Source: a candidate division NC10 bacterium CSP1-5
GTDB lineage: Bacteria; Methylomirabilota; Methylomirabilia; Methylomirabilales; CSP1-5
NCBI GenBank assembly: GCA_001443495.1
Contig: LDXR01000017.1
Coordinates: 3,087 to 67,086 of the forward strand
Length of the DNA stretch: 64,000 nt
Reading direction: 5' to 3'
Made by a program: the position numbers and the translations under genes. The notes under the pieces are model-generated. The model was not told the DNA's origin. It saw nothing but the letters and a program-made list of their open reading frames with translations, and ran no database searches. Within the stretch, counting starts at the first letter, position 1. Every line of letters starts with the position of its first letter. Shown here in pieces: positions 795-46,528 of this stretch.

Positions 795-915
795 ATTACC
801 GACTACCGATGACCGTTGACCGAAAGGGCGAGGGGTGGTATTTCTCGGTCGCGGGTCATCGGTTACAGATCGTCGGTGCACTCTCATTTGTCATCGGACT
901 ACTGTCATCGGTCAT
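795..915. repeat. Inverted heptad-repeat array (CGGTCAT type)
   Basis: The left arm (795-822) is four contiguous 7-mers: attaccg, actaccg, atgaccg, ttgaccg. The right arm (846-915) is ten 7-mers in one phase, including gggtcat, cggttac, ttgtcat, ctgtcat and cggtcat, the reverse complement of the left-arm type. A purine-rich 23-nt spacer separates the arms. The array fills the argS-aminotransferase junction and ends just before the aminotransferase ribosome-binding site. Confidence 0.8.
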
Positions 916-932
916 CGAGTAAGGGGGGAATC

Positions 933-2099
933 ATGCATGACTTTGCACGGATGAAGCGACTGCCCCCCTACATCTTCAGCATCGTCAACGAGCTGAAGAC
1001 CAAGGCGCGGGCGCGGGGAGAGGACATCATCGATTTCGGCATGGGGAACCCGGATCAGCCGACACCGAAGCATATCGTCGACAAGCTGTGTGATGCGGCC
1101 CGGAATCCGAGAAACCATCGCTACTCCGCCTCGCGAGGAATCACCAAGCTCCGGAAGGCGATCGCCGACTGGTACCGCCGCCGGTACAGCGTGGAGATCG
1201 ATCCCGACACCGAGGCGATCGCCACTATCGGAGTCAAGGAGGGGATTTCCCATCTTGCCCTGGCGATCGTGGAACGGGGAGATGTGGCGTTGGTCCCGAG
1301 TCCGACCTATCCCATTCATGCCTATTCGGTGGTGATTGCGGGCGGCGATGTCCGGAACGTCCCCCTGGGACCGGGGATCGACTTCTTCGAGAAGCTGCAG
1401 GAGGCCTACAAGGGGTGCTGGCCGCCGCCCAAGCTCCTCATGGTGAGCTTTCCCCACAACCCCACGACCCAGGTGGTGGACCTCGCCTTCTTCACCAAGC
1501 TGGTCGAGTTCGCCAAAGCGCACGGTTTGATCGTGATCCACGACTTTGCCTACGCCGACCTCACCTTCGACGGATACCGGGCCCCGAGCTTTCTCGGGGT
1601 GCCGGGAGCGCGCGAGGTCGGGGTAGAGTTCTTCAGCCTCTCGAAGAGTTACAACATGCCGGGGTGGCGGGTCGGCTTCGCCGTCGGGAACCGACAGATC
1701 ATCGCCGCGTTAGCCCAGATCAAGAGCTATCTGGATTACGGCCATTTCCAGCCGATACAGATTGCCTCCATCATTGCGCTGAACGGTCCGCAGGATTGCG
1801 TGGACGACATCGTGGCGATGTACAGGGCCCGACGGGACGTGCTGGTGACCGGGCTGAACCGGCTCGGTTGGCCCTGTGAAAAGCCGCTGGGGACCATGTT
1901 TGTCTGGGCCAAGATCCCGGAGGCCTACCGGGCCATGGGCTCCCTGGAGTTTTCGAAGTTCCTGCTAGAAAAGGCCAAGGTGGCGGTCTCACCCGGGATC
2001 GGGTTCGGCAACCTGGGGGACGAGTATGTGCGCTTTGCCCTGGTGGAGAATCAACACCGGACCCGTCAGGCGCTCCAGGGGATCAGGCGGGCGCTCTGA
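933..2099 (+). CDS. Class I/II PLP aminotransferase (AlaC / LL-DAP aminotransferase-like)
   Basis: A 388-residue cytoplasmic PLP-dependent aminotransferase of fold type I. Visible signatures are NPDQPTP near the N-terminus, the [12 protein letters not shown] segment, the cofactor-binding [13 protein letters not shown], and the Schiff-base lysine in [15 protein letters not shown] substrate-carboxylate arginine lies in [12 protein letters not shown]. The ATG at 933 is preferred over upstream in-frame codons because AAGGGGGG precedes it and the heptad array ends before it. Family members act as glutamate-pyruvate transaminases or LL-diaminopimelate aminotransferases, and the sequence alone does not settle the substrate. 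purF follows 57 nt downstream. Confidence 0.9.
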
Positions 2100-2155
2100 G
2101 CGGAGGACGGCCTTTGCCCCTTGCCAGGCGCAGGGACGTTCGGTATAGTGAAGAC

Positions 2156-3571
2156 ATGAGCGTTGAGCGAGACAAGTTCCGGGACGAGTGCGGCGTCTTC
2201 GGCATCTACGGGCATCCGGAGGCGGCTAATCTCACCTATTTGGGCCTCTACGCCTTGCAGCACCGCGGCCAGGAATCGGCGGGGATCGCCTGTTCGGACG
2301 GGAAGACGATCCATGTGGAAAAGGCGATGGGCCTGGTGGCCGACGTCTTCACCGAGGCGCGCCTCCGGCGGCTGCCGGGTGATATCGCCATCGGACACGT
2401 CCGCTATTCCACCACCGGGTCGAGCCAACTCAAGAATGCCCAGCCCTTTTTCGCGGGCACCCATCGGGGCTCCCTGGCGCTCGGTCACAACGGCAACCTG
2501 GTCAACGCCATGAGGGTCCGGGCCGAACTCGAGGCTCGGGGATCCGTCTTCAGCTCGACATCCGACACCGAGGTCATCCTGCATCTGATCGCCCGCTCTC
2601 AGGCCGATAGCTTGATCGATGCGGCCGCCGCGGCGCTATCAGACCTCCACGGGGCCTACTCCTTGGTCCTGATGAACGAGGGACAGCTTCTCGGGATCCG
2701 CGACCCCCGAGGCTTCCGTCCCCTCTCCCTGGGCCGGATCAAGGAGGGCTATGTGCTTGCGTCAGAATCCTGCGCCTTTGACCTGATCGGGGCGACCTTC
2801 GTGCGGGATGTGGATCCCGGAGAGTTTCTCTTGATCGATCAGAGCGGACTGCACTCGTATTTCCCGCTGCCGGTGACCTCCCCCGCCATGTGCATCTTTG
2901 AGCACGTGTACTTTGCACGCCCCGACAGCCTGGTCTTTGGCCAGCACGTCTCTCGAGTCCGGAAAGAGCTGGGACGCCGCCTGGCGCAGGAGGCCCCCGC
3001 CGACGCGGATATCGTCGTTCCCGTCCCCGATTCCGGGATGTACGCCGCCCTGGGCTATGCCCAGGAGGCGGGTCTTTCCTATGAGCAGGGGATGGTGCGA
3101 AACCACTACGTGGGCCGGACCTTCATCGAGCCCAAGGGCTCCATCCGGCACTTCGGTGTCAAGGTCAAGCTCAACGCCGTGCGCGAGGTCCTGGAGGGGA
3201 AGCGGGTCGTGGTGGTGGATGACTCCATCATCCGCGGAACGACGAGCCGAAAGATCGTCGCCATGCTCCGGGCGGCCGGGGCCCGGGAGGTCCATATGCG
3301 GGTCAGCTCTCCGCCCACGAGCTGGCCATGCTACTACGGCATCGATACCCCGACCCGCCGGGAGCTCATTGCTTCGTCACACACGGTGGATGAGATTCGG
3401 AGGTACGTCGGGGCCGATTCCTTGGCGTACCTCAGCCTCAAGGGCCTCCTGGAAGCCGTGGGCAAGGATGACGGGTACTGTGCAGCCTGCTGGACCGGCC
3501 GATATCCCGTGGAGTTTCCGGGCCAGGGGGTGCGGCAGTTGAACCTCTTCGAGCATCGCGAACGCGCATAG
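2156..3571 (+). CDS. purF: Amidophosphoribosyltransferase (glutamine PRPP amidotransferase)
   Basis: This enzyme catalyses the committed step of purine synthesis, PRPP plus glutamine to 5-phosphoribosylamine. The 471-residue product has an 11-residue propeptide before Cys12 in [10 protein letters not shown], the expected N-terminal nucleophile after processing. The PRPP loop [14 protein letters not shown] lies near residue 350. Four cysteines match the Bacillus-type 4Fe-4S ligands: AMCIFE (about 245), WPCYYG (about 391) and CAACWTG (about 442 and 445). The protein is therefore probably the oxygen-sensitive iron-sulfur form. The start was chosen so that the propeptide has normal length. A small conserved gene follows after 9 nt. 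Confidence 0.97.
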
Positions 3572-3580
3572 GAGAGAAAG

Positions 3581-3853
3581 ATGACAACGGCTTCTACGGA
3601 TCCTCACGAGCGGGCGAGGCGGCTCGCGCGGCTCATCGTGGCCGATATCATCCTCTACAATCAGGCCAAGATCGATGAGGGGATCAAGAATGATACTCTC
3701 TTTGATCTCCTCGCAGAGGATATCGAAGTCGCCCGCCGGTACTACGAAAAGCATGTGGACGCTGCCGTGGCCCGGGAGGCGAATTACTTCGACCTGGCCC
3801 TCGTGGATGTCCTGGTCAAGGGAAGGCAGGACATCCCGTCCAAGATCTGGTAG
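3581..3853 (+). CDS. Small conserved hypothetical helical protein
   Basis: A 90-residue soluble protein, predicted almost entirely helical, preceded by GGAGAG at normal spacing. The core RLARLIVADIILYNQAKI followed by an acidic helix (FDLLAEDIEVARRYYEKHV) resembles a short domain I have seen in uncharacterised proteins, often fused to zinc-ribbon or response-regulator domains in other bacteria. That recollection is from memory and not verified. Here the domain stands alone, 9 nt after purF, so the two are probably co-transcribed. No catalytic motif or membrane segment is visible, and the function is unknown. Confidence 0.75.
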   Translation: MTTASTDPHERARRLARLIVADIILYNQAKIDEGIKNDTLFDLLAEDIEVARRYYEKHVDAAVAREANYFDLALVDVLVKGRQDIPSKIW

Positions 3854-3949
3854 GAAGGGTCTCCCGCACTCACGTTCCGCATCTCTTCCACGGACGGCAC
3901 GCGTGTCTCCGCGAACCGGGGGACCTTCCGCGCTCTATCCCAACAGAGA

Positions 3950-3978
3950 TTGCAATCCCCGGTCTCTCCTGCTAGACT
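3950..3978 (+). promoter_or_regulatory. Sigma-70-type promoter for hppA
   Basis: TTGCAA (3950-3955), a 17-nt spacer, then TAGACT (3973-3978). The putative start of transcription would be about 60 nt before the hppA ATG, which has AAAGGAG at 4029-4035. Confidence 0.6.
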
Positions 3979-4044
3979 CTCCCCGCCTGCGACGGGATAC
4001 CATCCGCCATGCATGACTGACCTTCAATAAAGGAGCAGACGACG

Positions 4045-6372
4045 ATGAGCGAGGCCAGTATTGTCCTTCCCCAGTTCGGGCCGACGGAGTGGACCATCCT
4101 GTGGGTGGTCCTTGTCTCATCCTTTATCGCCCTGGGGTATGGTCTGTTGCTGGCGTTTCGGGTCCTTCGGGAAGATCCGGGATCGCCAGCGATGGTCCGG
4201 GTAGCCGCCGCCATCGAGGAGGGGGCCTTTGCCTACCTGGCGCGTCAGGTGAAGACTATGATCTGGTTTGTCATCGCCATCACGATCGGTCTTTTTTTCA
4301 TGTACCGCGGGATGTACGAGGGGTTGGTTCTTCCTCTCGGCGTGTCGCTCGCCTTCCTGATGGGGGTGGCAGCGTCCTACGGCGCCGGTTATGTCGGCAT
4401 GTGGTTGGCCGTGAAGGGAAACGTCCGGACAGCCGCCGCTGCCCTGAAAAGCTTCAAGACATCGCTGGAGATCGCCTTCCGGGCCGGCACGGTGTCCGGG
4501 ATGTTCACCGTCGGCCTCGGCCTCCTCGGTGCCACCATCATCTTCCTCTTGTTCAGAGAAAATGCCATGAAGATCCTGATCGGCTTCGGCTTCGGCGGGT
4601 CGTTGGCCGCCCTCTTTATGCGCATGGGTGGCGGCATTTTCACCAAGGCGGCCGATGTGGGAGCGGACCTAGTGGGCAAGATCGAGAAAGGAATCCCGGA
4701 GGACGACCCGCGCAATCCCGCCACGATCGCGGACAACGTGGGTGACAACGTGGGCGACTGCGCCGGCATGGCGGCCGATGTCTTCGAATCCTACGAGGTT
4801 ACGCTGGTGGCCGCCATCATCCTGGGTGCGGGTGCCATGCTGGACAAGGATTTCGTTCAGGCCTTTGGAGGCGAGGCCACTGCGCTCAAGGTGACATTAG
4901 CGCTGGTCATCTACCCCCTCCTCATCCGGGCCGTGGGGGTCTTCGGCTCGATCATCGGCACCTGGGCCGTGCGGGGGAAAGATGACCCCGCCATGAATCC
5001 CATGAAGCCGATCAACGTCGGATTCTGGGTGGCCGCCCTCACCTCCGTTGTCGGGTTCTTCGGGGTGAGCTGGTGGTACCTCGGGAGCATCACCGCCACG
5101 AAGTACCACAGCGAGGGATTCCCCTTCTGGCTGCGCGTGTCCGTGGCCAATACCATGGGCATCGTCCTGGCCCTGGTGATCCAGTGGATGACGGAGTACT
5201 TCACGGCGACGGATAAAAAGCCGGTGAACGAGATTGCGCACGCCAGCAAAACGGGTCCGGCCACGCTGATCCTCTCCGGGGTTGCCTATGGCCTGGAGTC
5301 GAGCGTCTGGGCCATCCTAGCCATCGCCGCCACTATCTTCGGCTCGTACAGCATCTTTGGGGGGAGCTTCTCGCTGTCCGCCTACGGCATCGCCCTGGCC
5401 GGCCTGGGGCTCTTGGCCACCACCGGCTTCGTCCTGGCCGAGGATACGTTCGGTCCCATCTCGGACAACGCCAGTGGCATCTTCGAAATGTCCGGGGCGC
5501 TGAAGGACAACCCCAAAACCCCGTCCGGGATCGAGGCGCACCGGATCGTGGCCAAGCTGGACGCGGTGGGGAACACGACCAAGGCGCTCACCAAAGGACT
5601 GGCCATTGCCACGGCGGTCATCGCCGCGGTCTCCCTCTTTCGCTCGTTCATTGACGAGGCGCACCTGTATGAGATCGGTATTCAAGTGAACCTCCCGGAG
5701 GTGTTCATCGGGTTCCTCATCGGCGGGGCCGTGCCGTTCCTCTTCTCCTCCTTCGCCATCCAGGCGGTGAGCCGGGCCGCCTTCCTCCTGGTGGAAGAGG
5801 TCCGACGGCAGTTCCGCGAGAAGCCCGGGATCATGGAGTATAAGGAGAAGCCTGACTACGGTCGCTGCGTGGAGATCGTGACGGCCGCCGCCCAGAAAGA
5901 GCTGCTCGGGCCCGGCATCCTCTCGATCGTAAGCCCCATCCTGGTGGCCTTCGCCTTTGGCGCCCCTGCCCTGGGCGGATTCCTGGCCGGCGCGATCCTC
6001 ACCGGGCAGCTGATGGCGGTCTTCCTGTCCAATACCGGTGGGGCCTGGGACAACGCCAAGAAGAAGATCGAGGAGGGCCTCTTCGGTGGGAAGGGGACCG
6101 AATTCCACAAGGCCGCGGTCATCGGCGACACCGTCGGCGATCCGTTCAAGGATACGGCGGGGCCGGCGATCAATCCGATGATCAAGGTCATGAACCTCGT
6201 GGCGATCCTGGTGGCGCCGCTGGCGATTCAGGATATCGCCCCCATAACGCGCTTCATCATTTTTCTGGTTTGTCTGCTCATCCTCGGCTTCTCCGTCGCA
6301 TTCTCCAAGCGGGGTTCTATCGCCAAGGAGCAACCCGCGTCAGGGAGGAAGGTCGTCGAAGCCTCGAAATAG
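4045..6372 (+). CDS. hppA: K+-independent H+-translocating membrane pyrophosphatase
   Basis: This integral membrane pump couples pyrophosphate hydrolysis to proton export. The 775-residue protein is strongly hydrophobic, with a family-typical 16-helix length. Substrate motifs are intact: DVGADLVGKIE, EDDPRNPATIADNVGDNVGD, EDTFGPISDNASGIFEMSG near the middle, and GDTVGDPFKDTAGPA near the C-terminus. In the diagnostic helix the sequence reads GNTTKALTKG. Lys and Thr at these positions mark the K+-independent subfamily, whereas K+-dependent enzymes carry Ala and Gly, so a proton pump rather than a sodium pump is expected. A good promoter and ribosome-binding site precede it; fumC follows after 16 nt. 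Confidence 0.97.
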   Translation: MSEASIVLPQFGPTEWTILWVVLVSSFIALGYGLLLAFRVLREDPGSPAMVRVAAAIEEGAFAYLARQVKTMIWFVIAITIGLFFMYRGMYEGLVLPLGVSLAFLMGVAASYGAGYVGMWLAVKGNVRTAAAALKSFKTSLEIAFRAGTVSGMFTVGLGLLGATIIFLLFRENAMKILIGFGFGGSLAALFMRMGGGIFTKAADVGADLVGKIEKGIPEDDPRNPATIADNVGDNVGDCAGMAADVFESYEVTLVAAIILGAGAMLDKDFVQAFGGEATALKVTLALVIYPLLIRAVGVFGSIIGTWAVRGKDDPAMNPMKPINVGFWVAALTSVVGFFGVSWWYLGSITATKYHSEGFPFWLRVSVANTMGIVLALVIQWMTEYFTATDKKPVNEIAHASKTGPATLILSGVAYGLESSVWAILAIAATIFGSYSIFGGSFSLSAYGIALAGLGLLATTGFVLAEDTFGPISDNASGIFEMSGALKDNPKTPSGIEAHRIVAKLDAVGNTTKALTKGLAIATAVIAAVSLFRSFIDEAHLYEIGIQVNLPEVFIGFLIGGAVPFLFSSFAIQAVSRAAFLLVEEVRRQFREKPGIMEYKEKPDYGRCVEIVTAAAQKELLGPGILSIVSPILVAFAFGAPALGGFLAGAILTGQLMAVFLSNTGGAWDNAKKKIEEGLFGGKGTEFHKAAVIGDTVGDPFKDTAGPAINPMIKVMNLVAILVAPLAIQDIAPITRFIIFLVCLLILGFSVAFSKRGSIAKEQPASGRKVVEASK

Positions 6373-6388
6373 CTTGGGAGGGGGAACA

Positions 6389-7807
6389 ATGGCCGGGGAT
6401 GACTATCGGATTGAACGCGACTCGATGGGAGAAGTCCGGGTTCCAGCCAAGGCCTATTATGGGGCGCAAACGCAGCGCGCCGTCGAGAACTTTCCGGTGA
6501 GCGGGCTCCGCTTCCCCCCGAGCTTTATCCACGCCCTGGGGATGATCAAGCTGTGTGGGGCGAGGGCGAACCTCGACCTCGGGCTGCTAGACCGGAGGAT
6601 CGCCGAGGCCGTGATCAAAGCCGCCCAGGAAGTGGTGGCCGGGACGTGGAACGGGGAGTTCGTCGTCGACATCTTTCAAACCGGCTCCGGCACCTCGACG
6701 AACATGAATGCCAACGAGGTGATCGCGAATCGGGCCATCGAGCTTTTGGGGGGGCAGATCGGTAGCAAACAGCCAGTCCATCCCAATGACCATGTGAACC
6801 TGGGGCAGTCGTCGAACGATGTGATCCCGACCGCCATCCACGTGGCGGCCCTCCAGGAGATCGAGCGGGAACTCCTGCCTTCCCTGCGGAAGCTGCACCA
6901 GGTCCTCCTCGCCAAGGCGGGGGAGTTTGACCGGGTGGTCAAGATTGGCCGGACGCATCTGCAGGATGCGACCCCCGTTCGGCTGGGACAGGAATTCGGC
7001 GGCTATGCCAGGCAGGTGGAGCTTGGCATCGTGCGGATCGAACGGATCCGCCCGTCACTCCACGAACTGGCGTTGGGCGGCACCGCCGTGGGGACCGGGA
7101 TCAACACCCATCCCGAGTTTCCCGGTCGGGTGATCCGGTACCTGGCCGAGATGACCCAGCTCCCGCTGGGTGAGGCCAAGAATCATTTCGAAGCCCAGGG
7201 GAGCCAAGATGCTCTCGTGGAGACGAGCGGGATCCTCAAGACGGTCGCGGTGAGCCTGACGAAGATCGCCAATGATATCCGCTGGCTCGGGTCGGGTCCC
7301 CGTTGCGGCCTCGGCGAGATTGTGCTTCCCGCCATTCAGCCGGGCTCCTCCATCATGCCGGGCAAGGTCAATCCGGTCATCCCCGAGGCTGTCATCCAGG
7401 TGGCGGCCCAGGTGATCGGCAATGACGCCTGCATCACCATCGGGGGCCAGGGAGGGTACTTCGAGCTGAACGTGATGATGCCGGTTATGGCCCATACGCT
7501 CTTGCAGTCCATCGCCCTGCTCTCGAGCGCCTCCCGGATCTTCGTCGATAAGTGCCTGGTGGGAATCCGTGCCGATGAGGCGCGCTGTGCCGAGCTGATC
7601 GAGCAGTCCCTCGCGATGTGCACGGCGCTGGCCCCGGTCATCGGCTATGACAGCGCCGCGAAGATCGCCAAAGAGAGCTATGAGACCGGCAAGACGATAC
7701 GTCAGGTGGCCCTCGAGCACCGGATTCTCCCTGAGGCGGAGCTGAACCGGATTCTGGATCCCTGGCGGATGACCGAGCGGGGGATTGTCGGCCGTGGCGA
7801 GGGGTGA
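6389..7807 (+). CDS. fumC: Fumarate hydratase class II
   Basis: This tetrameric, iron-independent TCA-cycle enzyme interconverts fumarate and malate. The 472-residue product has the three superfamily conserved regions: TGSGTSTNMNANEV, HPNDHVNLGQSSND and the signature GSSIMPGKVNP near residue 318. Histidine and serine catalytic regions appear intact. The ATG at 6389 is supported by GGGAGGGG; an upstream TTG at 6374 is less likely. It probably shares a transcript with hppA. A short membrane-protein gene overlaps its 3' end. Confidence 0.96.
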   Translation: MAGDDYRIERDSMGEVRVPAKAYYGAQTQRAVENFPVSGLRFPPSFIHALGMIKLCGARANLDLGLLDRRIAEAVIKAAQEVVAGTWNGEFVVDIFQTGSGTSTNMNANEVIANRAIELLGGQIGSKQPVHPNDHVNLGQSSNDVIPTAIHVAALQEIERELLPSLRKLHQVLLAKAGEFDRVVKIGRTHLQDATPVRLGQEFGGYARQVELGIVRIERIRPSLHELALGGTAVGTGINTHPEFPGRVIRYLAEMTQLPLGEAKNHFEAQGSQDALVETSGILKTVAVSLTKIANDIRWLGSGPRCGLGEIVLPAIQPGSSIMPGKVNPVIPEAVIQVAAQVIGNDACITIGGQGGYFELNVMMPVMAHTLLQSIALLSSASRIFVDKCLVGIRADEARCAELIEQSLAMCTALAPVIGYDSAAKIAKESYETGKTIRQVALEHRILPEAELNRILDPWRMTERGIVGRGEG

Positions 7808-9423: not shown

Positions 9424-9468
9424 AGGCAGGCTCCTCGGTCCTCCGAACGGCGATACAGCGTAACAAAC

Positions 9469-13462: not shown

Positions 13463-13551
13463 AGCTGTCAGCGGTCAGCCGTCGGCTGTCAGCAATTTCC
13501 GGAGGGGAAATGGTATCCGTGCGGACTGCCGATAGCTGCCAGCCGACAGCT
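13463..13551. repeat. Inverted heptad-repeat array (RGCNGTC type)
   Basis: The left arm (13463-13490) reads agctgtc, agcggtc, agccgtc, ggctgtc. The right arm (13524-13551) is its reverse complement in the same 7-bp phase: gactgcc, gatagct, gccagcc, gacagct. The 33-nt spacer contains GGAGGGG. The right arm abuts the coaX start codon. Confidence 0.8.
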
Positions 13552-15753: not shown

Positions 15754-15776
15754 AAAAAGGTGTCAGGAACCTTTTT
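15754..15776. repeat. REP-type hairpin, left copy
   Basis: AAAAAGGT / ACCTTTTT stem with loop GTCAGGA. The right copy beyond the transposase gene has the complementary loop TCCTGAC, so the two copies are in inverted orientation. Confidence 0.75.
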
Positions 15777-15815
15777 TATTGACGGGGAGGGTGGGTGAAG
15801 CTAGGCTAGGGTCCC

Positions 15816-16511
15816 ATGGGACGTCCGTTACGTGCCGCTGTCGGCGGCGTGATCTACCACGTGTTGAACCGGGCGAATGGCGGGCTGCAGCTCTTTGAGA
15901 AAGCCGGGGACTACGGGGCGTTCGAGCGGGTCTTCGAGGAGGCTCACGAGCGGATCCCGATGCGGACCCTAGCGTATTGCCTCATGCCGAATCATTGGCA
16001 TCTGGTGCTGTGGCCACGGCGTGACGGCGACCTCTCGCAGTTTCTGGCGTGGGTGACGCTGACGCACACGCAACGCTGGCATGCGCACCGCAAGACGACG
16101 GGCCAGGGGCATGTGTACCAGGGCCGGTTCAAGGCATTTCCTCTGCAAAGGGATGAGCATTTCCTGGCAGTATGCCGGTATGTGGAGCGGAATCCCTTGA
16201 GGGCGGGGTTCGTAGTGAGAGCCGAAGAGTGGCGGTGGTCAAGCCTGTGGTGGCGGAGGGCTGGCGCCGCTTCGAAGCGGCGCTGGTTGGCCGAGTGGCC
16301 TATTCCACGGCCAGCGCGGTGGGTGAACTGGGTGAACGAGCCGCAGACGGGCACGGAACTTGAAGCACTGCGCCGGTGTGTCACGCGGGGGCAGCCCTTC
16401 GGCTCGGAGGCATGGGTGCGGCGCACGGCGCTCCGCTTGGGCCTCGAAGTGACGTTACGCCCTCGCGGGCGCCCGACAAGGGAGGGTAGGGGGCCACGAA
16501 AAGGTTCCTGA
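15816..16511 (+). CDS. REP-associated tyrosine transposase (RAYT, Y1/IS200-like)
   Basis: A 231-residue HUH-superfamily endonuclease of the REP-associated branch. It begins MGRPLRAAVGGVIYHVLNR and carries the metal-binding histidine pair in CLMPNHWHLVLW. The Y1 helix region lies around AVCRYVERNPLRAGFV, followed by the typical WRWSS. Such proteins cleave and join single-stranded REP hairpins. The flanking hairpins at 15754-15776 and 16499-16519 are the expected substrates, and the gene's stop codon (16509-16511) lies inside the right one. The C-terminal 60 residues are arginine-rich and less conserved. Confidence 0.9.
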   Translation: MGRPLRAAVGGVIYHVLNRANGGLQLFEKAGDYGAFERVFEEAHERIPMRTLAYCLMPNHWHLVLWPRRDGDLSQFLAWVTLTHTQRWHAHRKTTGQGHVYQGRFKAFPLQRDEHFLAVCRYVERNPLRAGFVVRAEEWRWSSLWWRRAGAASKRRWLAEWPIPRPARWVNWVNEPQTGTELEALRRCVTRGQPFGSEAWVRRTALRLGLEVTLRPRGRPTREGRGPRKGS

Positions 16512-16519
16512 CACCTTTT
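16499..16519. repeat. REP-type hairpin, right copy
   Basis: AAAAGGT / ACCTTTT stem with loop TCCTGAC. It contains the stop codon of the transposase gene and runs directly into a tandem repeat. Confidence 0.75.
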
Positions 16520-16573
16520 CCGCCTCCTTTTCCGCCTGCACCTTTTCCGCCCACCTTTTCCGCCCTTTCCGCC
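16514..16573. repeat. Tandem CCTTTTCCGCC repeats
   Basis: Four copies of the 11-mer CCTTTTCCGCC (16514-16524, 16526-16536, 16541-16551, 16554-16564) plus a shortened fifth (16565-16573), with 1-4 nt between most copies. The first copy shares bases with the right REP hairpin. Confidence 0.85.
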
Positions 16574-20135: not shown

Positions 20136-20212
20136 CGACGACGGATGACCGATAGTGACTGGTGGCTAACCACGACGTATGAACCCTGAACCCTGAACCA
20201 TGAACCATGAAC
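20136..20212. repeat. Heptad-repeat array (ATGAACC / CTGAACC type) overlapping the argJ start
   Basis: Eleven contiguous 7-mers in one phase. They start with cgacgac, ggatgac, cgatagt, pass through ggctaac and tatgaac, and end with two cctgaac and two catgaac units. The argJ ATG lies in the tenth unit. Unlike the other arrays, no clear inverted arm is seen. Confidence 0.8.

Positions 20213-23066: not shown

Positions 23067-23094
<28 letters not shown>
22474..23094 (+). CDS. tsf: Elongation factor Ts
   Basis: The guanine-nucleotide exchange factor for EF-Tu. The 206-residue product is the short form lacking part of the E. coli dimerisation region. The N-terminal VKELRIKTGAGVMECKSAL (UBA-like) and the exchange motif ETDFVAR are present. 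ATG 22474 is chosen because the family begins here; in-frame codons upstream are unsupported. The final residues DDNSPMS and the stop are encoded within a heptad array, so the C-terminal end has been shaped by the repeat. Confidence 0.96.
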
Positions 23095-23920
<826 letters not shown>

Positions 23921-39465: not shown

Positions 39466-39467
39466 GA

Positions 39468-39496
39468 GGGTTCAGAGTTGAACTATGAACCCTGAA
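39468..39496. repeat. Short inverted heptad element overlapping the next start codon
   Basis: GGGTTCA (39468-39474) pairs with TGAACCC (39486-39492), and the whole segment is in 7-bp phase (ggttcag, agttgaa, ctatgaa, ccctgaa). The ATG of the Gfo/Idh gene (39485) lies in the right arm. Confidence 0.65.
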
Positions 39497-40432
39497 CGAA
39501 AGATACGGGTGGCGGTCATCGGGGTGGGGCATGTGGGTCAGCACCACGCCCGGATCTACCGGGAACTCCCTGGAGCCGAGCTGGTCGGCGTCGTCGACAT
39601 CGATCGCGCTAAGCTCCAGGAGTTGAGCGAATCCCTGGGCGTGGCCGCATGTGAGGATTACCGGGATATGTTCGGCCGGGTGGACGCCGTCAGCGTCGCC
39701 GTCCCCACGGTTCTCCACGCCCCTATCGCCCGCGACTGTCTGGAGCGCGGCCTTGACGTCCTCGTCGAAAAGCCCCTGGCCGAAACCTTGGAAGAGGCGG
39801 AGGAACTCACGGATCTGGCCAGGCGACGGGGACGGATTCTCCAGGTGGGCCATGTGGAGCGGTTTAACGGGGCGGTCCGCGCTCTTCAACGGATGGTCAA
39901 GGCGCCGGGTTTCATTGAGTGTCATCGCCTCAGTCCCTTCCCGCAGCGTAGCACCGATGTGGACGTGATCCTCGATCTCATGATCCACGATATCGACATC
40001 ATCCTCAGCCTGGTGAAGTCTCCGGTCACCCAGGTGCGCGCGGTCGGGGTGCCGGTCCTGACCGATCGCGTGGACATTGCCAATGCCAGGATTGAGTTCG
40101 CGTCAGGATGTGTGGCCAACGTGACCGCCAGCCGGGTGAGCGTTGAACGCGTCCGCAAGATCCGCGTCTTTCAGCCGGACACGTATATCTCCCTCGACTA
40201 TGCGAGTCAAGAGATCAGCCTCTACCGTCGCCTGCCGGGAAACCCTACGTTTCATCCCCCCCAGCCTCCCCGGATCGTCAGGGAGGAGGTGGTCGTCGAG
40301 AAAGAAGAACCCCTCCGCCTACAGCTCGCGAGCTACCTCAGGTCGGTCCGGGAGCGGACGCGGCCAGAGGTCTCGGGGGAAGAGGCGGTAGAGGCTCTCC
40401 GGGCCGCGTCCCAGATCCTGGCCAAAATTTGA
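39485..40432 (+). CDS. Gfo/Idh/MocA-family oxidoreductase in the lipid A cluster
   Basis: A 315-residue NAD(P)-dependent sugar dehydrogenase. An N-terminal Rossmann fold, VAVIGVGHVGQHHARIYREL, is followed by the family motif VEKPLAE and the catalytic-region lysine. A C-terminal alpha/beta domain has HDIDIILSLV. It sits between lpxI and lpxB, an arrangement I associate with deltaproteobacterial genomes. UDP-GlcNAc 3-dehydrogenase (GnnA), which with an aminotransferase (GnnB) makes 3-amino precursors for amide-linked lipid A, belongs to this family. No GnnB partner is visible, so that assignment is only a hypothesis. Confidence 0.88.
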   Translation: MNPERKIRVAVIGVGHVGQHHARIYRELPGAELVGVVDIDRAKLQELSESLGVAACEDYRDMFGRVDAVSVAVPTVLHAPIARDCLERGLDVLVEKPLAETLEEAEELTDLARRRGRILQVGHVERFNGAVRALQRMVKAPGFIECHRLSPFPQRSTDVDVILDLMIHDIDIILSLVKSPVTQVRAVGVPVLTDRVDIANARIEFASGCVANVTASRVSVERVRKIRVFQPDTYISLDYASQEISLYRRLPGNPTFHPPQPPRIVREEVVVEKEEPLRLQLASYLRSVRERTRPEVSGEEAVEALRAASQILAKI

Positions 40433-40434
40433 CA

Positions 40435-41592
40435 ATGAATAAGAAAATATTCATCGTGGCCGGGGAGGCCTCCGGAGACCTCCACGCCGCCGATCTCGCG
40501 CGGGCCCTCCTCTCCCTCGACCCGGAGGTCACCCTCTTGGGGATGGGGGGGGAACAGATGCGGCGGGCTGGTGTCACCCTTCACGTCGATGCCGGCGAGT
40601 TGGCCGCCGTCGGGATCACCGAAGCACTCTCGGGCATTGTGGCGGTCCTGCGCGCCTTGGCACGGCTCCGGTCGGCCCTCGACGCGGAAAATCCCGCCCT
40701 CCTCCTCCTGATCGACTTCCCCGATTTCAATTTTTGGTTGGCGCGGGCTTCCCGACGGAGGGGGATTCCGGTGCTGTACTATATCAGCCCGCAGGTCTGG
40801 GCCTGGCGCAAAGGGAGGATCCGGACGCTGAAGCGGCTGGTGAAAAAGATGCTGGTCATCTTCTCCTTTGAGGAGGTCCTGTATCGCCAGGCGGGGGTTC
40901 CCGTCACTTTTGTCGGCCACCCCATGCTGGACCGTCTGCGAGACATTCCGAGTCGAGAAGAGGCTCGTCGCCGCATGGGGTATGATCCTTCGGATCGGAT
41001 CATTGGCCTCCTCCCGGGGAGCCGTGAGGGAGAGGTCCGACACCACCTCCCGGTTCTCAAAGCGGCCGCTGCCCAGATTGTTCAAGCTGAGCCCCCGGTC
41101 CGGTTTCTTCTGGGTGTGGCCGATTCACTCCCCCCGCGACTGGTCGAGACGCTCCTTCAGGGGAGTGATTTACCGATTCGACTGCTCCGAGGCCAGACGT
41201 ACGAGATCATGCGAGCGGCAGACCTGGTGATCGCGGCATCGGGAACGGCGACACTCGAGGCAGGGCTTCTCGGGACCCCCATGGTCATCATCTATCGGGT
41301 CTCCCGTCTCACTTGGTGGGTGGGCAGGCTCTTGGTGGATGTTCCCGCCGTAGGGATGGTAAACTTAGTTGCAGGAAGGCGCGTGGTACCCGAGCTGCTG
41401 CAGTGGGACTGTACCCCTGAGCGGGTGGCCAAGATCGCCCTGGAGCTCTTGCAGAGCCCTGAGGCCCTTGGGTCGATCCGTGAGGAGCTCCAGAAGATTC
41501 GGAGAAAGCTCGGAGAGGAGGGGGCCTCTCTTCGCGCAGCCCGGGAGGTCCTCAAGACGCTGTATGAGGTGGAGGCCAGGAGTCGGAGGTGA
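40435..41592 (+). CDS. lpxB: Lipid-A-disaccharide synthase
   Basis: This GT-B family 19 glycosyltransferase joins UDP-diacylglucosamine and lipid X into the disaccharide. The 385-residue product begins KKIFIVAGEASGDLHAADL. It contains DFPDFNFWLARASRRRGIP, YYISPQVWAWRKGRI, the glycine-rich LLPGSREGEV and the nucleotide-sugar site ASGTATLEAGLLGTPMVI. ATG 40435 begins 3 nt after the preceding stop codon. Its stop overlaps the start of the next acyltransferase. Confidence 0.97.
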   Translation: MNKKIFIVAGEASGDLHAADLARALLSLDPEVTLLGMGGEQMRRAGVTLHVDAGELAAVGITEALSGIVAVLRALARLRSALDAENPALLLLIDFPDFNFWLARASRRRGIPVLYYISPQVWAWRKGRIRTLKRLVKKMLVIFSFEEVLYRQAGVPVTFVGHPMLDRLRDIPSREEARRRMGYDPSDRIIGLLPGSREGEVRHHLPVLKAAAAQIVQAEPPVRFLLGVADSLPPRLVETLLQGSDLPIRLLRGQTYEIMRAADLVIAASGTATLEAGLLGTPMVIIYRVSRLTWWVGRLLVDVPAVGMVNLVAGRRVVPELLQWDCTPERVAKIALELLQSPEALGSIREELQKIRRKLGEEGASLRAAREVLKTLYEVEARSRR

Positions 41593-42320
41593 AGCGAGCC
41601 TGGAAGGGTCTTCGGACCAATCCGGTTGTCATCGCCGTCCTCACCCGGCTGGTGGTGTTCCTGCTCGGGGGTCTCTTCCGGTCCCTGCGAATGAGCTATG
41701 TGGGGCGCGAGGTGCTCGACGAAATTATCCGCGCCGAGGGGAGACGGGTCATGGCAACTTTCTGGCATGGCCGGCTCCTCATGATGCCCTTTGCGTATCG
41801 TGAAGGTCCGTGGGCAATTATGGTGAGTCGACACCCGGATGCGGAGGTTATCAGCCGGGTGGCAGAGCGATTCGGCATTCAACCGGTACGGGGTTCGGCC
41901 CGCCGAGGCGGTGCCCGGGCCCTTCGCGGGATGGTGCGAGCCTCCCGAAGAGGGTATCATCTGGCGATCACCCCAGATGGGCCTCTCGGCCCGAGGGAGC
42001 AGGTGAAGACCGGAACGATCGAGCTCGCCCGGCTGGCTGGGACCCCGATCATTCCGATGGCCTTTGCCGCGTCGCACGGAAGGTTCGAGCGCAGTTGGGA
42101 CCGGCTTCTGATCCCGTATCCCTTTGGCCGGGGGGTGTTTGTGTACGGAGAACCGGTCGTGGTTTCTCCGACGGCCGGCCCCGAGGAGGTGGAGAAGGCG
42201 CGCGCCGTCCTCGAGGAGGGTCTTCGTCAGGTGACGGCGGTGGCTGATGCGTACTTCAAAGAATCAGCAGTCGGCCATCAGCCATCAGCCGTCGGCGCAA
42301 GATCCGAGAGGAGCCTTTGA
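41589..42320 (+). CDS. DUF374 family lysophospholipid acyltransferase-like protein
   Basis: A 243-residue membrane-associated protein of the LPLAT superfamily, DUF374 branch. An N-terminal hydrophobic helix is followed by TFWHGRLLMMPFAYR, SRHPDAEVISRVAERFGI, VRGSARRGGARALRGM and the acceptor-loop TPDGPLGPREQVKTG. Relatives sit between lpxB and waaA in many genomes and are presumed to acylate lipid A or a Kdo-lipid intermediate, which is not proven. The final residues ESAVGHQPSAVGARSERSL are encoded by a heptad array and form an unnatural tail. GTG overlaps the lpxB stop. Confidence 0.88.
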   Translation: MKRAWKGLRTNPVVIAVLTRLVVFLLGGLFRSLRMSYVGREVLDEIIRAEGRRVMATFWHGRLLMMPFAYREGPWAIMVSRHPDAEVISRVAERFGIQPVRGSARRGGARALRGMVRASRRGYHLAITPDGPLGPREQVKTGTIELARLAGTPIIPMAFAASHGRFERSWDRLLIPYPFGRGVFVYGEPVVVSPTAGPEEVEKARAVLEEGLRQVTAVADAYFKESAVGHQPSAVGARSERSL

Positions 42321-42341
42321 TGCTGACTGCTGATCGCTGAA
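42264..42341. repeat. Inverted heptad-repeat array reaching into the acyltransferase gene
   Basis: The left arm (42264-42298) is tcagcag, tcggcca, tcagcca, tcagccg, tcggcgc, inside the coding sequence. The right arm (42321-42341) is tgctgac, tgctgat, cgctgaa, beyond the stop. A direct repeat ATCCGAGAG lies at 42302-42310 and 42342-42350. Confidence 0.8.
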
Positions 42342-42358
42342 ATCCGAGAGTGGATCTC

Positions 42359-43630
42359 ATGAGGGCCCTGTACAGCATCGGTCTCTTCCTGGCGTTGCTC
42401 ACCCATCTGCCTCGCATTCTCCGCCGAGGTGGCCGGCGCGGTCCGTTCGGGCTAGCGGAGCGGTTAGGCCGATACCCTGAATCGCTCACCATCAGGCTTC
42501 GAGAGAAACGCCCGCTCTGGCTCCATGCGGTTTCGGTGGGGGAAGCGGTGGTGGGAGGCATTCTACTTTCACGACTGCGCGCGAGGCGGTCGGGACTGCC
42601 CTTCCTCGTCTCAACGGTCACCGCCACGGGACGGGAGGTGGCTCGAGAGCGAATCCCCCAAGCGGAGGCGCACATCTACTTTCCTCTGGACTTTCCCGGA
42701 CCCGTGGCCCGCGCCCTGACGGCCGTCAAGCCCAGGCTCGTCCTCCTGACGGAGGGCGAGATATGGCCAAACTTTCTTGAGGCCTGCCACCTCCGAGACG
42801 TGCCGGTCCTCCTGGTGAACGGCCGGGTCTCAGATCGGTCTTTCCGGCGCTGCCAGCTTGTCACGCCGCTCTACCGGCGGGTGCTCAAGCGCATCGCGCT
42901 CTTCTGCATGCAGGGCGAGGGGGATGCACGCCGCATTTTGACGTTGGGGGCCGATCCGGAGCGCGTGGTCGTCACGGGCAACATCAAGTATGATGACGAG
43001 GAGGCGAATGACCAGTTTCCCGCGCGTCTTGCCCCTGTCGCGCGTCTCGTGGACGGTCGGCCGGTCTGGGTGGCCGGGAGTACCCATCGGGGAGAGGAGG
43101 GCCCTGTCCTCCAGGCCTTTCACGAGATCAAGACAGCGGTCCCCGGTTCGATCCTGGTCCTTGCCCCGCGCCACCCGGAGCGGATTCCCGAGGTCGAGAT
43201 GCTCCTCCGGGAGGCAGGCCTTCCCTTCGTTCGCCGGAGCGCGCTTACCGGAGGCGCTGCCGAGCTTCCGTCAGTCGTCCTGGTCGATACCATGGGAGAG
43301 TTGAGTCACCTCTATGCCCTGGCCACGGTGGCTTTCGTGGGCGGCAGCCTGGTCCCGGTGGGCGGGCATAACATCCTGGAACCCGCCCGATATCGGCGGC
43401 CGATCCTGTTTGGGCCGCACATGGACAACTTTGGCGAGGTGGCTGAGGCCTTCCTCGGTGAGGGAACGCCTCACCAGGTTCGTGATGCCCCCGAGCTGGC
43501 GGCACGGGTCCTCAACCTCTTCCGCGACCCTGCTGCGGCACACCGGATGGGGGAGGCCGCCTATCGGGTACTGACCCGCAACCGGGGGGCGGCCGAGCGG
43601 ACCGTCACGCTGATCGAGCGGTATCTGTGA
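42359..43630 (+). CDS. waaA: 3-deoxy-D-manno-octulosonic acid (Kdo) transferase
   Basis: This inner-membrane GT family 30 enzyme adds Kdo to lipid IVA. The product is about 423 residues with an N-terminal hydrophobic anchor (LYSIGLFLALLTHL). WLHAVSVGEAVVG carries the conserved acceptor-side glutamate. TEGEIWPNFLEAC, VTGNIKYDD, and a C-terminal donor site with FVGGSLVPVGGHNILEPA follow. ATG 42359 is chosen with GAGAGTGG upstream; GTG 42350 is the alternative. Whether it adds one or two Kdo units cannot be read here. The stop overlaps the lpxK GTG. Confidence 0.95.
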   Translation: MRALYSIGLFLALLTHLPRILRRGGRRGPFGLAERLGRYPESLTIRLREKRPLWLHAVSVGEAVVGGILLSRLRARRSGLPFLVSTVTATGREVARERIPQAEAHIYFPLDFPGPVARALTAVKPRLVLLTEGEIWPNFLEACHLRDVPVLLVNGRVSDRSFRRCQLVTPLYRRVLKRIALFCMQGEGDARRILTLGADPERVVVTGNIKYDDEEANDQFPARLAPVARLVDGRPVWVAGSTHRGEEGPVLQAFHEIKTAVPGSILVLAPRHPERIPEVEMLLREAGLPFVRRSALTGGAAELPSVVLVDTMGELSHLYALATVAFVGGSLVPVGGHNILEPARYRRPILFGPHMDNFGEVAEAFLGEGTPHQVRDAPELAARVLNLFRDPAAAHRMGEAAYRVLTRNRGAAERTVTLIERYL

Positions 43631-44718
43631 ATCCGAATATTCACCGACACTATCGCCAGTGGGTCGCCGGTCACGGTCGGCGGGGCCGCCCGGTGCGCGC
43701 TCTCCTGCGTGTGGCGTCCTGGGCCTACGGCCTGGGTGTCGGGTGGCGTCGCGGCCTGTACGGCGTCGGTCTGCTCAGACGGGTCCGCCCGCCCGTACCG
43801 GTTATCAGCATCGGCAATATCACCGCCGGAGGGACCGGGAAGACCCCCTTGACGATCCACCTCGGGCAGGAGCTCCGGGACCGGGGACTTCGAGCGGCGG
43901 TAGTGACGAGGGGCTACGGGGGGACGAGGGAGGGGAGGACGGTCGTTGTCTCGGACGGCCAGACCGTGAGAGCGGGCTATCCCGATGTCGGGGATGAGGC
44001 ACTCCTTCTCGCGCGGAAGTTGCCCGGGGTTGTCGTCCTCATGTCCGCTGATCGGGTCAAGGGGTGCCGGGTGGCCGTTCGCGAGTTCGGCGCTCAGGTG
44101 ATCCTCTTGGATGACGGCTTCCAACATCTTCGGGTCGCGCGGGACCTGGACATCGTTCTTCTGGATAGAGAAAATCCTTTCGGATACGGTTATCTCCTTC
44201 CTCGGGGACTCCTCCGGGAGCCCGTACGTGCCATACGACGGGCAGATCTCCTGGTGATGACCGGGGTGGGCGACCCTGGGGAGCCCACGGACGCGCTCTC
44301 TCACTCCCGCGACATCACGCGGGTGCCTATCCTCCATGCGGTCTACACCCCGACGGTCTTCACCGATGTCATGAGCGGTCAGACGGTCGCCGAGGAAGAC
44401 CTCCGCGGTCAAAGATTCGTCGCCTTCTCCGGGATCGCGAACCCGTCGGCCTTCGACCGGACGCTCGCGTCCCTCGGGAAGGTACCGAAGCGTCATCTCA
44501 TCTATCCCGACCATCACCCGTACAGCGCGGCGGACATCGCCACGATCGCAGAGTGCATGAAGGAGGTTGGGGCGACGGTCGCCCTGACGACTGAGAAGGA
44601 TGCGGTTCGCATTGAAAAACTCCCGGTCCCATTTCCCGTTCTTGCAGTTGGGGTGAGCCTCACCCTTACGAGCGGCCAGCCGGAGCTGAAGCGTTTCCTG
44701 GACACCCTGTTTCCGTAG
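43627..44718 (+). CDS. lpxK: Tetraacyldisaccharide 4'-kinase
   Basis: LpxK phosphorylates the 4' position of the lipid A disaccharide at the inner-membrane face. The 363-residue protein has an N-terminal amphipathic segment and the P-loop ISIGNITAGGTGKTP (about residue 67). The conserved TRGYGG and DEALLLARKL lead to the catalytic-core DDGFQHLRVARDLDIVL. The C-terminal TTEKDAVRI motif is present. The GTG start overlaps the waaA stop. Order waaA-lpxK follows the usual pathway cluster. Confidence 0.95.
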   Translation: MNPNIHRHYRQWVAGHGRRGRPVRALLRVASWAYGLGVGWRRGLYGVGLLRRVRPPVPVISIGNITAGGTGKTPLTIHLGQELRDRGLRAAVVTRGYGGTREGRTVVVSDGQTVRAGYPDVGDEALLLARKLPGVVVLMSADRVKGCRVAVREFGAQVILLDDGFQHLRVARDLDIVLLDRENPFGYGYLLPRGLLREPVRAIRRADLLVMTGVGDPGEPTDALSHSRDITRVPILHAVYTPTVFTDVMSGQTVAEEDLRGQRFVAFSGIANPSAFDRTLASLGKVPKRHLIYPDHHPYSAADIATIAECMKEVGATVALTTEKDAVRIEKLPVPFPVLAVGVSLTLTSGQPELKRFLDTLFP

Positions 44719-44739
44719 CGGAATGGGCGAGAGGCGGCG

Positions 44740-45819
44740 ATGAGGGTGATCGAGCGGACGGGGGTCGATCCAGCCGGGGTTCGCCGGATCCTGATCCGGG
44801 GAGTGAACTGGGTCGGCGACGCGGTGATGACCACGCCTGCCATCGCCGGCATCCGCAAGACCTTCCCTCGCGCGCAGATCTCTCTCCTCGTGAAGCCGTG
44901 GGTTGCCGGGGTCTTTGCGGGGAACCCACACATCGACGAGATACTCATCTACGACGGGGAAGGCCGTCACAGGGGCGTAACAGGACTCCTCCAGCTGGCC
45001 CGAGAGCTTCGGGAGTCCCGGTTCGAACTGGCCATCCTGCTTCAGAACGCCTTTGAAGCGGCCCTCCTTGCCTTCCTAGCCAGAATCCCCCACCGAATTG
45101 GCTACAACACCCAGGGGAGGGGTCTGCTCCTGACCACGGCGGTGGCTCAGGATCGATCGACGAGAAAGCTTCATTACGCCGACTACTACCTGGCTCTCCT
45201 TGGCGCGCTCGGGTGGGCACAGGAAAAGCGCGAGCCGTCCCTATTTCTCAGCAGCCAAACGGAGGAGCGGGCCGAGGCCTTGCTCGCGGAGGAGGGGGTG
45301 GGGCCGCAGGACACCCTTGTGGCCTTCAATCCCGGCTCGATCTATGGCTCGGCCAGGCGCTGGCCCGAGGAGCGGTTCGCAGCGCTGGCCGATCGCCTGG
45401 TCGAGGACCTCGGGGTAAAGGTACTTCTTACCGGGGCGAAAGTCGACGGGGCGGTGGCGAGGGCGGTTCGGTCGTATGCCCGCTATCCACAGCATGTGAT
45501 TGACCTGATCGGCCGAACGGACATTCAGCTTCTGGCGGCGGTGCTGAGACGCTGCGCTGTCTTTGTGACTATCGATACAGGGTCGATGCACATCGGCGCA
45601 GCCGTGGGCGTTCCGCTGGTGGCGATCTTTGGACCGACCAATGAGAAGACCGCCTTTCCGCTGGGAAGGCACGTGCTCCTCAGGCATCCGGTCCCATGCA
45701 GCCCCTGCCTTCTGAGAGAATGCCCGATTGACCACCGGTGCATGACTGGGATTTCAGTGGATCAGGTTTTATCCTCTGTAATAGGTGTTTATGACTTTAA
45801 TGATAAAGTTGTACATTAA
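44740..45819 (+). CDS. waaF: Lipopolysaccharide heptosyltransferase (WaaF-like)
   Basis: A GT family 9 ADP-heptose transferase that builds the inner LPS core. The 359-residue protein has ILIRGVNWVGDAVMTTPAI at the N-terminus and FNPGSIYGSARRWPEERF in the middle. The donor-site SMHIGAAVGVPLVAIFGPTNE is followed by a Cys-rich end (PCSPCLLRECP). The last 20 codons become strikingly AT-rich compared with the rest of the gene. waaC is not in the window. gmhB, which makes the heptose precursor, follows. Confidence 0.93.
   Translation: MRVIERTGVDPAGVRRILIRGVNWVGDAVMTTPAIAGIRKTFPRAQISLLVKPWVAGVFAGNPHIDEILIYDGEGRHRGVTGLLQLARELRESRFELAILLQNAFEAALLAFLARIPHRIGYNTQGRGLLLTTAVAQDRSTRKLHYADYYLALLGALGWAQEKREPSLFLSSQTEERAEALLAEEGVGPQDTLVAFNPGSIYGSARRWPEERFAALADRLVEDLGVKVLLTGAKVDGAVARAVRSYARYPQHVIDLIGRTDIQLLAAVLRRCAVFVTIDTGSMHIGAAVGVPLVAIFGPTNEKTAFPLGRHVLLRHPVPCSPCLLRECPIDHRCMTGISVDQVLSSVIGVYDFNDKVVH
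45794..45809. promoter_or_regulatory. AT-rich palindrome at the waaF-gmhB junction
   Basis: ACTTTA-ATGA-TAAAGT (45794-45809) lies in an AT-rich patch (about 45770-45835) that is unlike the surrounding GC-rich DNA. It could be an operator or part of a promoter for gmhB. Confidence 0.4.
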
Positions 45820-45832
45820 GTTGTGACACCAA

Positions 45833-46402
45833 ATGATAAGGGGCTCGCCGGCAGTCTTTCTCGATCGAGACGGGACCATCAACGAGGACTCAGGGTATCT
45901 GGCTGATCCTTCGGGCCTCCGACTTTTGTCGGGGGCCGGGCTGGGGCTCCGGCTGCTTCAGGAGGGGGGCTTTCGGCTGGTGGTGGTGAGCAACCAATCG
46001 GGGATCGCCCGGGGGTATTTGACGGAAGCAAGGCTTGCCGAGATCCACCAAAGGCTCGAGAGCCTGCTTGGGACAGAGGGGGTCACGTTGAGCGGCGTAT
46101 ATTACTGCCCCCACCACCCGGAGGGGGCTCCCCCGTTTCGACAGGTGTGTCATTGTCGCAAGCCTCAGGGGGGATTGGTGGAGCGCGCGGCGCGGGAGCA
46201 CAAAATTGACTTGAGCCGCTCGTATGTCGTCGGAGACCAGCTCGTCGATATCGAGCTGGCGCGGCAGTCGGGGATGACGGCCATCCTCGTGCTTACCGGG
46301 CAGGGGAGGCTCGCGTTAGAGTCGGGAACCGTTGAGGCGGATCATGTCGCCACCGATCTCGCGGCCGCGGCCCGTTGGATTCTCGGGAGGCACGTCGGAT
46401 GA
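45833..46402 (+). CDS. gmhB: D-glycero-D-manno-heptose-1,7-bisphosphate 7-phosphatase
   Basis: A 189-residue HAD-superfamily phosphatase in ADP-heptose synthesis. The nucleophile motif reads FLDRDGTINEDSGY. VVSNQSGIARG follows, then the zinc-binding loop CPHHPEGAPPFRQVCHCRKP, the lysine in that loop, and the acidic motif VVGDQLVDIELARQSG. No good ribosome-binding site precedes the ATG, which lies 13 nt after the waaF stop. Other heptose genes (gmhA, hldE) are not in the window. Confidence 0.94.
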   Translation: MIRGSPAVFLDRDGTINEDSGYLADPSGLRLLSGAGLGLRLLQEGGFRLVVVSNQSGIARGYLTEARLAEIHQRLESLLGTEGVTLSGVYYCPHHPEGAPPFRQVCHCRKPQGGLVERAAREHKIDLSRSYVVGDQLVDIELARQSGMTAILVLTGQGRLALESGTVEADHVATDLAAAARWILGRHVG

Positions 46403-46433
46403 GCCAACAGGATATCCGGGCGCTGCGAAGAAG

Positions 46434-46528
46434 GTTCACGGTTCAGGGTTCATAGTTCATAGACGGAGATGGGAGAGGAATGGTTGGTCCGCCATTGACC
46501 ATGAACCACCAACCATGAACCCCGAACG
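46434..46528. repeat. Inverted heptad-repeat array (GTTCAYG / ATGAACC type)
   Basis: The left arm (46434-46461) is gttcacg, gttcagg, gttcata, gttcata. A 32-nt purine-rich spacer follows. The right arm (46494-46528) is attgacc, atgaacc, accaacc, atgaacc, ccgaacg. It lies between gmhB and the Memo-family gene. Confidence 0.85.

Follow-up and report, generated by a model that had tools for sequence, protein, structure and literature searches.

Among the intergenic tandem repeats of many prokaryotes, heptamers rank first in abundance (Mori et al. 2018, PMC6344855; Mrazek et al. 2007 via PMC4679880 and PMC4692102), and Mori et al. 2018 state that there is 'no clear clue' on the function of intergenic heptamers (PMC6344855). 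In Xanthomonas, heptads of the GGGAATC or GGGANTN type form 70-75 convergent inverted pairs per genome, and the study of these heptads found no regulatory role (Rehm et al. 2015, PMC4692102). Since 2007, heptamers, as the commonest intergenic tandem repeats of bacteria, have stood without an explanation. Here we analyzed arrays of 7-bp units (heptads) at gene junctions in a 64,000-nt stretch of DNA, hereafter the window, from NC10 bacterium CSP1-5 (GCA_001443495.1, LDXR01000017.1, positions 3,087-67,086 of the forward strand), where an earlier note had pointed to seven such junctions. The arrays are members of the known intergenic heptamer repeat class, built as convergent pairs. We hold with moderate confidence that they are self-renewing spacer elements at the DNA level, which lengthen as units are copied and, in intercistronic slots that tolerate them, are replaced as whole blocks.

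Period-7 arrays in the window and across the genome

Segments were rated by their identity at lag p, with a main threshold score of at least 12 and with Markov shuffles as controls; the genome-level sample comprised 456 kb of stretches from the same genome, the window included. Under the strict test, the window contains 5 period-7 arrays and at most 1 array of any other period from 4 to 21. The sample contains 36 period-7 arrays at a score of at least 12 and the Markov shuffles contain 0. The other fundamental periods gave between 0 and 7 arrays in the sample, with 7 each for periods 8 and 9 and 0 for periods 5 and 10, and the signal at period 14 is a harmonic of 7; the only non-coding period that is strongly enriched is 7. 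The same step is seen in the GTTCA-to-GTTCA distances of up to 24 bp (n about 100), where 76 are 7 bp and 13 are 14 or 21 bp. At a score of at least 11, 36 arrays are intergenic and 9 are coding. The 7-bp tandem units lie above chance and mostly outside genes, as in intergenic heptamer repeats. The 7-bp phased arrays claimed in the earlier note are thus real: shuffled sequence gives no similar phase runs, and arrays occur genome-wide and in relatives. PHO boxes, which are GTTCA-containing direct repeats, have a period of 11 bp, and we rejected them as an account of the arrays because the spacing here is 7, 14 and 21, not 11.

The scoring segments in the window are 791-822, 13463-13493, 20180-20212, 42271-42296, 46433-46462 and 46492-46527, with three further scoring arrays within 23081-23192. 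Six of the seven junctions pass, while 39468-39496 holds no more than a small hairpin, the right half of which is coding sequence. The features are given below by window position, with the strand in brackets (entered as. throughout). The congeneric genomes G005 and G002 have flanking genes that are 90-98% identical to those of CSP1-5, and in G001, G003 and G006 the identity is about 77%.

791..822 (.): J1 left arm, GACCGAT-type heptads, 3 bp past the argS stop; period-7 score 12.5
846..918 (.): J1 right arm, GGTCATC-type, degenerate, the reverse complement of the left unit; read from the sequence
13463..13493 (.): J2 left arm, GTCAGCN heptads in the valS/coaX gap; score 11.5, fold z -3.8
13522..13551 (.): J2 right arm, GCTGACN-type heptads; read from the sequence
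20136..20153 (.): J3 left remnant, GATGACC-type, after argC; identified by sequence, present in G002, replaced in G005
20180..20212 (.): J3 right arm, TGAACCN heptads reaching into the argJ start codon; score 23.5
23067..23106 (.): J4 GTCCGAT heptads over the tsf 3' end; score 9, common to G005
23122..23148 (.): J4 left arm, GTTCAC heptads; score 15
23169..23192 (.): J4 right arm, TGAACC heptads ahead of pyrH; score 12, G003 and G006 orthologs one 7-bp unit apart
39468..39496 (.): J5 short hairpin GGGTTCA..TGAACCC, below the array threshold; right half forms the beginning of the next coding sequence; orthologs have full arrays of other families
42264..42296 (.): J6 left arm, ATCAGCC heptads within the 3' end of the upstream open reading frame (ORF); score 11.5
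42321..42340 (.): J6 right arm, GCTGACT-type heptads; inverted pair, fold z -3.9
46433..46462 (.): J7 left arm, GGTTCAN heptads; score 15.5
46492..46527 (.): J7 right arm, TGAACCN heptads; score 9; the whole J7 element is kept in G005 and G002

The polarity of the J1 right arm matches that of other loci of its unit family, and the two arms of J3 (20136-20212) come from different families. The genes that flank the window arrays are housekeeping genes: argS, valS-coaX, argC-argJ, tsf-pyrH, a lipopolysaccharide-biosynthesis run, a gmhB-like gene and a MEMO-like gene. The heptad arms at 23067-23106 and 42264-42296 extend over the 3' ends of the genes upstream of them, tsf and the ORF that precedes the Kdo transferase gene, respectively; at these two places, array growth would therefore alter the protein C-termini.

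Geometry, placement and polarity

CSP1-5 carries units of the families GTTCANN, GTCAGCN, GTCCGAN, GACCGAN, GTGATTN and GGACTGA, and the congeners have GTCCAAN and TTCGAAN as further families. No G-tracts of the G-quadruplex type are present in the GTTCANN, GTCAGCN, GTCCGAN, GACCGAN or GTGATTN units. The element consists of two facing arrays of one unit family, separated by a spacer of 10-40 bp, between co-directional genes. Among the 20 adjacent array pairs at most 80 bp apart in the genome sample, 15 are inverted and 0 are direct, which agrees with the inverted arms described previously for the window and gives two nearby convergent arrays as in Xanthomonas. The spacer was described as purine-rich and of 20-33 nt; its size of roughly 20-30 nt holds, while only some spacers are purine-rich. 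In the 52 GTTCA pairs of the genus, the median gap between full heptads is 22.5 bp, and the heptads retain a five-base core beside two variable linker bases.

The pairs have one polarity. GTTCANN pairs within 80 bp show GTTCA followed by TGAAC in 39 cases, 24 of them from other phyla, and the reverse order in 0. The lone relaxed exception, a GTTCA-type locus with TGAAC first and a 5-bp gap, is at L116:336-404 (Gemmatimonadaceae). A pattern search of the genus returned 27 palindromic sites in this genome and 16-26 per congener, with 0 in the reversed-pattern control. One polarity was also observed in the GTCAGC, GTCCGA, GACCGA, GTGATT and GTCCAA families, in smaller numbers. Exact fourfold copies of TGAACCN occur, among the matches listed, in Methylomirabilota, Desulfobacterota, Bacteroidota, Acidobacteriota, Verrucomicrobiota, Planctomycetota, Chloroflexota, Elusimicrobia, Omnitrophota and others. 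In addition, all five loci found for a sister family with a period of 8, GCTRGNAN, share this convergent geometry and polarity (C2:166876-166960 and C2:282069-282130 in this genome, and L227, L230 and L100), indicating that the step belongs to each family and is not a fixed 7-nt constant. The 8-mers AAGGGWTG and the 9-mers AACCCAAGA were also seen.

Of the 154 co-directional gaps in the genome sample, 25 have arrays, as does 1 of the 10 convergent gaps and none of the 13 divergent ones. About half of the arrays start no more than 5 bp past the upstream stop codon, and many stop 8-14 bp short of the next start, where exact starts are approximate because the genes were called by our own codon-usage caller. 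The elements run from right behind a stop codon to shortly ahead of the ribosome-binding region of the next gene. A role of the units in supplying stop codons (TGA in all frames) was rejected: a random heptamer contains a stop on either strand with a probability of 0.50, and about five of the eight families, by reading, contain one, so there is no enrichment.

The placement and the variety of units bear on whether the arrays are operator- or centromere-like sites read by ribbon-helix-helix (RHH) or similar proteins, as omega/ParB of pSM19035 reads WATCACW. Omega binds unspaced heptads, direct or inverted, cooperatively (PMC9499535); the GTGATTN family includes AATCACT units that fit WATCACW (C14:1019-1050 in this genome, GTGATTN/AATCACN), and the retention of five core bases beside two variable linker bases would suit such a protein. 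However, at least six unit families interchange at the same housekeeping junctions between close species, the divergent, promoter-bearing junctions are without arrays, and similarity decays along the arrays rather than conforming to one consensus. A single heptad consensus over promoters, as expected for omega, is not what we found, although no search for an RHH protein was made. We consider this explanation very unlikely. The binding protein for phased heptads proposed in the earlier note is not supported as one regulator, since at the same housekeeping junction the units change wholly between species whose flanks are 94-98% identical, and the arrays shun divergent, promoter-bearing junctions.

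Turnover at orthologous slots

The junctions with arrays change far faster than their flanks. Among 66 ortholog pairs, 17 of the 25 with arrays and 0 of the 41 without arrays had a junction identity of less than 0.7 (Fisher p ~4e-10), at flank identities of 93.8 and 94.0, respectively; pairs from one junction are not independent, and the two groups represent 15 and 24 junctions. Families are swapped on both arms at orthologous slots between species with flanks that are 90-98% identical. At rpmJ-rpsM (names assigned by reading the sequence), CSP1-5 has GTTCA together with GTGATTG/CACCAAT, G002 has GACGACC/GGTCATC and G005 has GTCAGCC/GCTGACT. In the argC-argJ gap, CSP1-5 has GATGACC and TGAACC, G005 has a GTCAGCN pair and G006 has TTCGAAN. 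Similarly, C14:13989-14057 has GTGGTTG here and GTTCATG in G005, and the J5 slot has GTCAGCN in G005, GTGATTN in G001 and G002, and GTTCATG in G004. J7, by contrast, was inherited intact in G005 and G002. Because the same gap keeps its rows in close relatives, often with different words, such gaps look like hot spots where repeats are made and replaced.

Smaller changes occur in whole units. G003 and G006 differ by a single 7-bp unit at J4, as do G002 and this genome at J7; these are the gains or losses of units that an alignment of orthologous junctions had been proposed to reveal. C14:11363-11474 differs from G002 by 14 bp (two units), and junctions 38 and 55 in G002 have deletions that leave one or two units. 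J3, J4 and the J5 slot of G002 each combine two or three families in a mosaic, a pattern that suggests that elements were added and lost step by step. The one-unit indels, the likeness of neighboring units and the en-bloc family replacement at orthologous slots all speak for the 'expanding element class' that was one suggestion of the earlier note. A dispersed palindromic element, ACTTCGGCGAGCTCAGTCGAGCCGTC, was seen inside a heptad arm in G002 (L224 near 2241-2254), where the arm is uninterrupted in G005 and in this genome; ACTTCGGCGAGCTCAGTCGAGCCGTC is also present at J4 of G002, junction 57 of G005 and J3 of G001.

Dispersed, palindromic arrays at gene ends, in slots that are nested mosaics of several elements, could be small non-autonomous mobile elements of the REP/REPIN or miniature inverted-repeat transposable element (MITE) kind, moved by a REP-associated tyrosine transposase (RAYT) or another transposase, and a RAYT-like gene lies within the window:

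15816-16511: RAYT-like gene; NF047646 just below cut-off, PF01797 above cut-off

This gene is the sole PF01797 match in the genome. Its flanks, 15755-15780 and 16498-16565, carry inverted GGTGTCAGGAACCTTTTT / AAAAGGTTCCTGACACCTTTT and CCTTTTCCGCC repeats, which are probably the gene's own REP set; it is thus flanked by its own repeat and not by heptads. A newly replaced hairpin, searched against seven congeneric genomes (incomplete assemblies), had no full-length copy there and only arm-level matches of ~33 bp; the other replaced elements were compared only with the DNA stretches collected for this analysis. Loops are unique, while arms alone match elsewhere, and array-rich G001 (92% complete, 23 TGAACCN matches) has no Y1_Tnp match. 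Near-identical copies that include the loop and are linked to a RAYT, the mark of REP/REPIN elements, were not found, and a classical copy-paste element, the other kind of mobile element that had been considered for the window, does not fit the missing full-length copy. Mobility of this kind is therefore highly improbable in our judgment.

The two arms are not copies of each other

Within pairs, the heptads of the two arms match at 0.752 in the natural register and at about 0.775 when shifted by one heptad in either direction. The best pairing between arms is no better than with shuffled heptad order, and between the linker bases there is no matching at position 2 and matching only at p=0.035 at position 1. 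Copying of one arm from the other, or messenger RNA (mRNA) pairing tuned by selection, would lead to an in-register heptad match, and none is seen. We therefore rejected the possibility that one arm is an inverted duplicate of the other. A conserved loop was also rejected, as the loops share no strong motif.

These comparisons also bear on intercistronic RNA hairpins, in which the arms would pair in the mRNA and either shield the upstream transcript or set downstream translation, with selection keeping any hairpin. The arm-loop-arm folds of most families beat dinucleotide shuffles with a median z of about -4, the sites lie between co-directional genes just past the stop codon, and both arms switch family together. 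However, any inverted arrays must fold better than shuffles. Linker bases pair at chance level, and the native heptad order gives a minimum free energy that is 1.75 +/- 0.52 kcal/mol weaker than that of shuffled order. As whole junctions, J4 (folded without the last 7 bases of its right arm) and J7 fold no better than shuffles, and J1 only weakly better. Compensatory changes were not apparent, as linkers and heptads were unmatched in the comparison across loci. Swapping the polarity leaves the folding energy unchanged, the native order being better in 23 of 44 cases, so RNA energy was rejected as the cause of polarity. There is also no Rfam match in the window. Taken together, a hairpin function for the arrays seems unlikely to us.

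Within an array, in contrast to shuffled unit order, where identity is flat at about 0.83 over all distances, unit identity falls with distance: in the long arrays of other phyla it is 0.90 for adjacent units and 0.80 for units eight places apart, although the lag-1 part of this decay is partly ascertainment. The same trend is seen in the genus. In some arrays, such as L115:1145-1266, the word changes wholly while the 7-bp phase is kept. The decay and the phase-kept word changes fit error-prone copying from the neighboring unit.

Whole-unit indels, similarity decay with distance, the intergenic bias and the wide taxonomic spread would also be produced by simple, neutral replication slippage that prefers a 7-nt step and involves no trans-acting specificity, as in the Mrazek-type hypothesis. 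However, slippage gives no reason to expect two facing arms of one family with a fixed polarity, the recurrence of unit words across loci and phyla or the replacement of both arms, and a period-8 family exists. Little credence can be given to slippage as the whole explanation.

Discussion

In the reading we prefer, that of self-renewing DNA-level spacers, a replication- or repair-linked DNA process would make and renew the arrays. The last unit would be copied with errors, so that the units drift while the phase is kept, and now and then a whole slot would be replaced by a facing pair of another family. At either side of the slot the process would run with the same 5'-to-3' sense, and such extension of both ends would yield one unit in opposite orientations, with arms that are not copies. 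The arrays would pile up in intercistronic gaps because insertion is tolerated there, not because a regulator reads them. Operators of one regulator, fine-tuned RNA hairpins and RAYT/REP elements are all unlikely as accounts of the arrays.

Several points weigh against this reading. Plain slippage alone leaves the genome-wide recurrence of a few unit words unexplained, as well as the presence of TGAACCN in many phyla and the fixed polarity. We found no empty slot with clean boundaries that would show a creation event, and the ascertainment in the lag-1 part of the decay weakens the trace of copying. The arrays may have a selected function. The period-8 family of the same geometry argues against a fixed 7-nt polymerase step.

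A bolder version, to which we assign only a slim chance, is that a dedicated or moonlighting DNA-writing activity extends broken or gapped intercistronic ends with short, family-specific words in one 5'-to-3' sense, and that the joining of these ends gives convergent, non-copied arms. If so, the same words and polarity across many phyla would mean a general, undescribed bacterial process. Telomerase-like repeats written by a reverse transcriptase were rejected, as this 99.7% complete genome has no RVT_1 (PF00078) match.

Any explanation is sharply constrained by slot-specific family switching, a polarity that is fixed across phyla and unmatched arms; most of slippage alone, one binder, a fine-tuned hairpin and REP-like transposition fail these constraints taken together. 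The fast turnover within the genus makes the process observable in strain pairs.

Comparison with known systems

The earlier note knew of no named family with this form. In fact, heptameric intergenic repeats, convergent pairs included, have been published (PMC4692102, PMC6344855, PMC4679880, PMC2700814), although without a mechanism. The Xanthomonas heptads resemble ours in being intergenic, with a conserved core, variable bases and convergent pairs, in lying near the upstream gene end and rarely between divergent genes, and in standing mostly between the same genes in relatives while length and sequence vary extensively (PMC4692102). Xanthomonas has one G-quadruplex-forming family, whereas here several families coexist, none is G4-like and slots switch family. 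The Mrazek and Mori heptamer surveys differ in that they treat single arrays; pairing, polarity and slot turnover are undescribed in the sections at hand.

The TAACTGA repeats of Beggiatoaceae, cyanobacteria and Bacteroidetes share with our arrays intergenic heptads, 7-nt strain indels and one unit in distant phyla (MacGregor 2015, PMC4679880), and the tandem heptanucleotides of cyanobacteria can be grouped with them as a related known case. In contrast to our arrays, the TAACTGA repeats are nearly all direct (1/170 inverted), point to start codons and have one strict unit (PMC4679880). The class-3 sites/H4 elements of Geobacter metallireducens also consist of four or five tandem heptanucleotides, some of them depicted as hairpin pairs, with dozens of intergenic copies; they are read as global regulator sites or regulatory RNA elements, and the sections at hand do not describe replacement within the genus (PMC2700814). 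The omega/ParB (RHH) parS sites of pSM19035 are alike in that a protein reads 7-bp units, direct or inverted, but they differ in having one consensus, WATCACW, over plasmid-gene promoters, without family switching (PMC9499535). Relative to what these sources contain in the parts we could consult, multi-family slot switching, cross-phylum polarity and unmatched arms are new.

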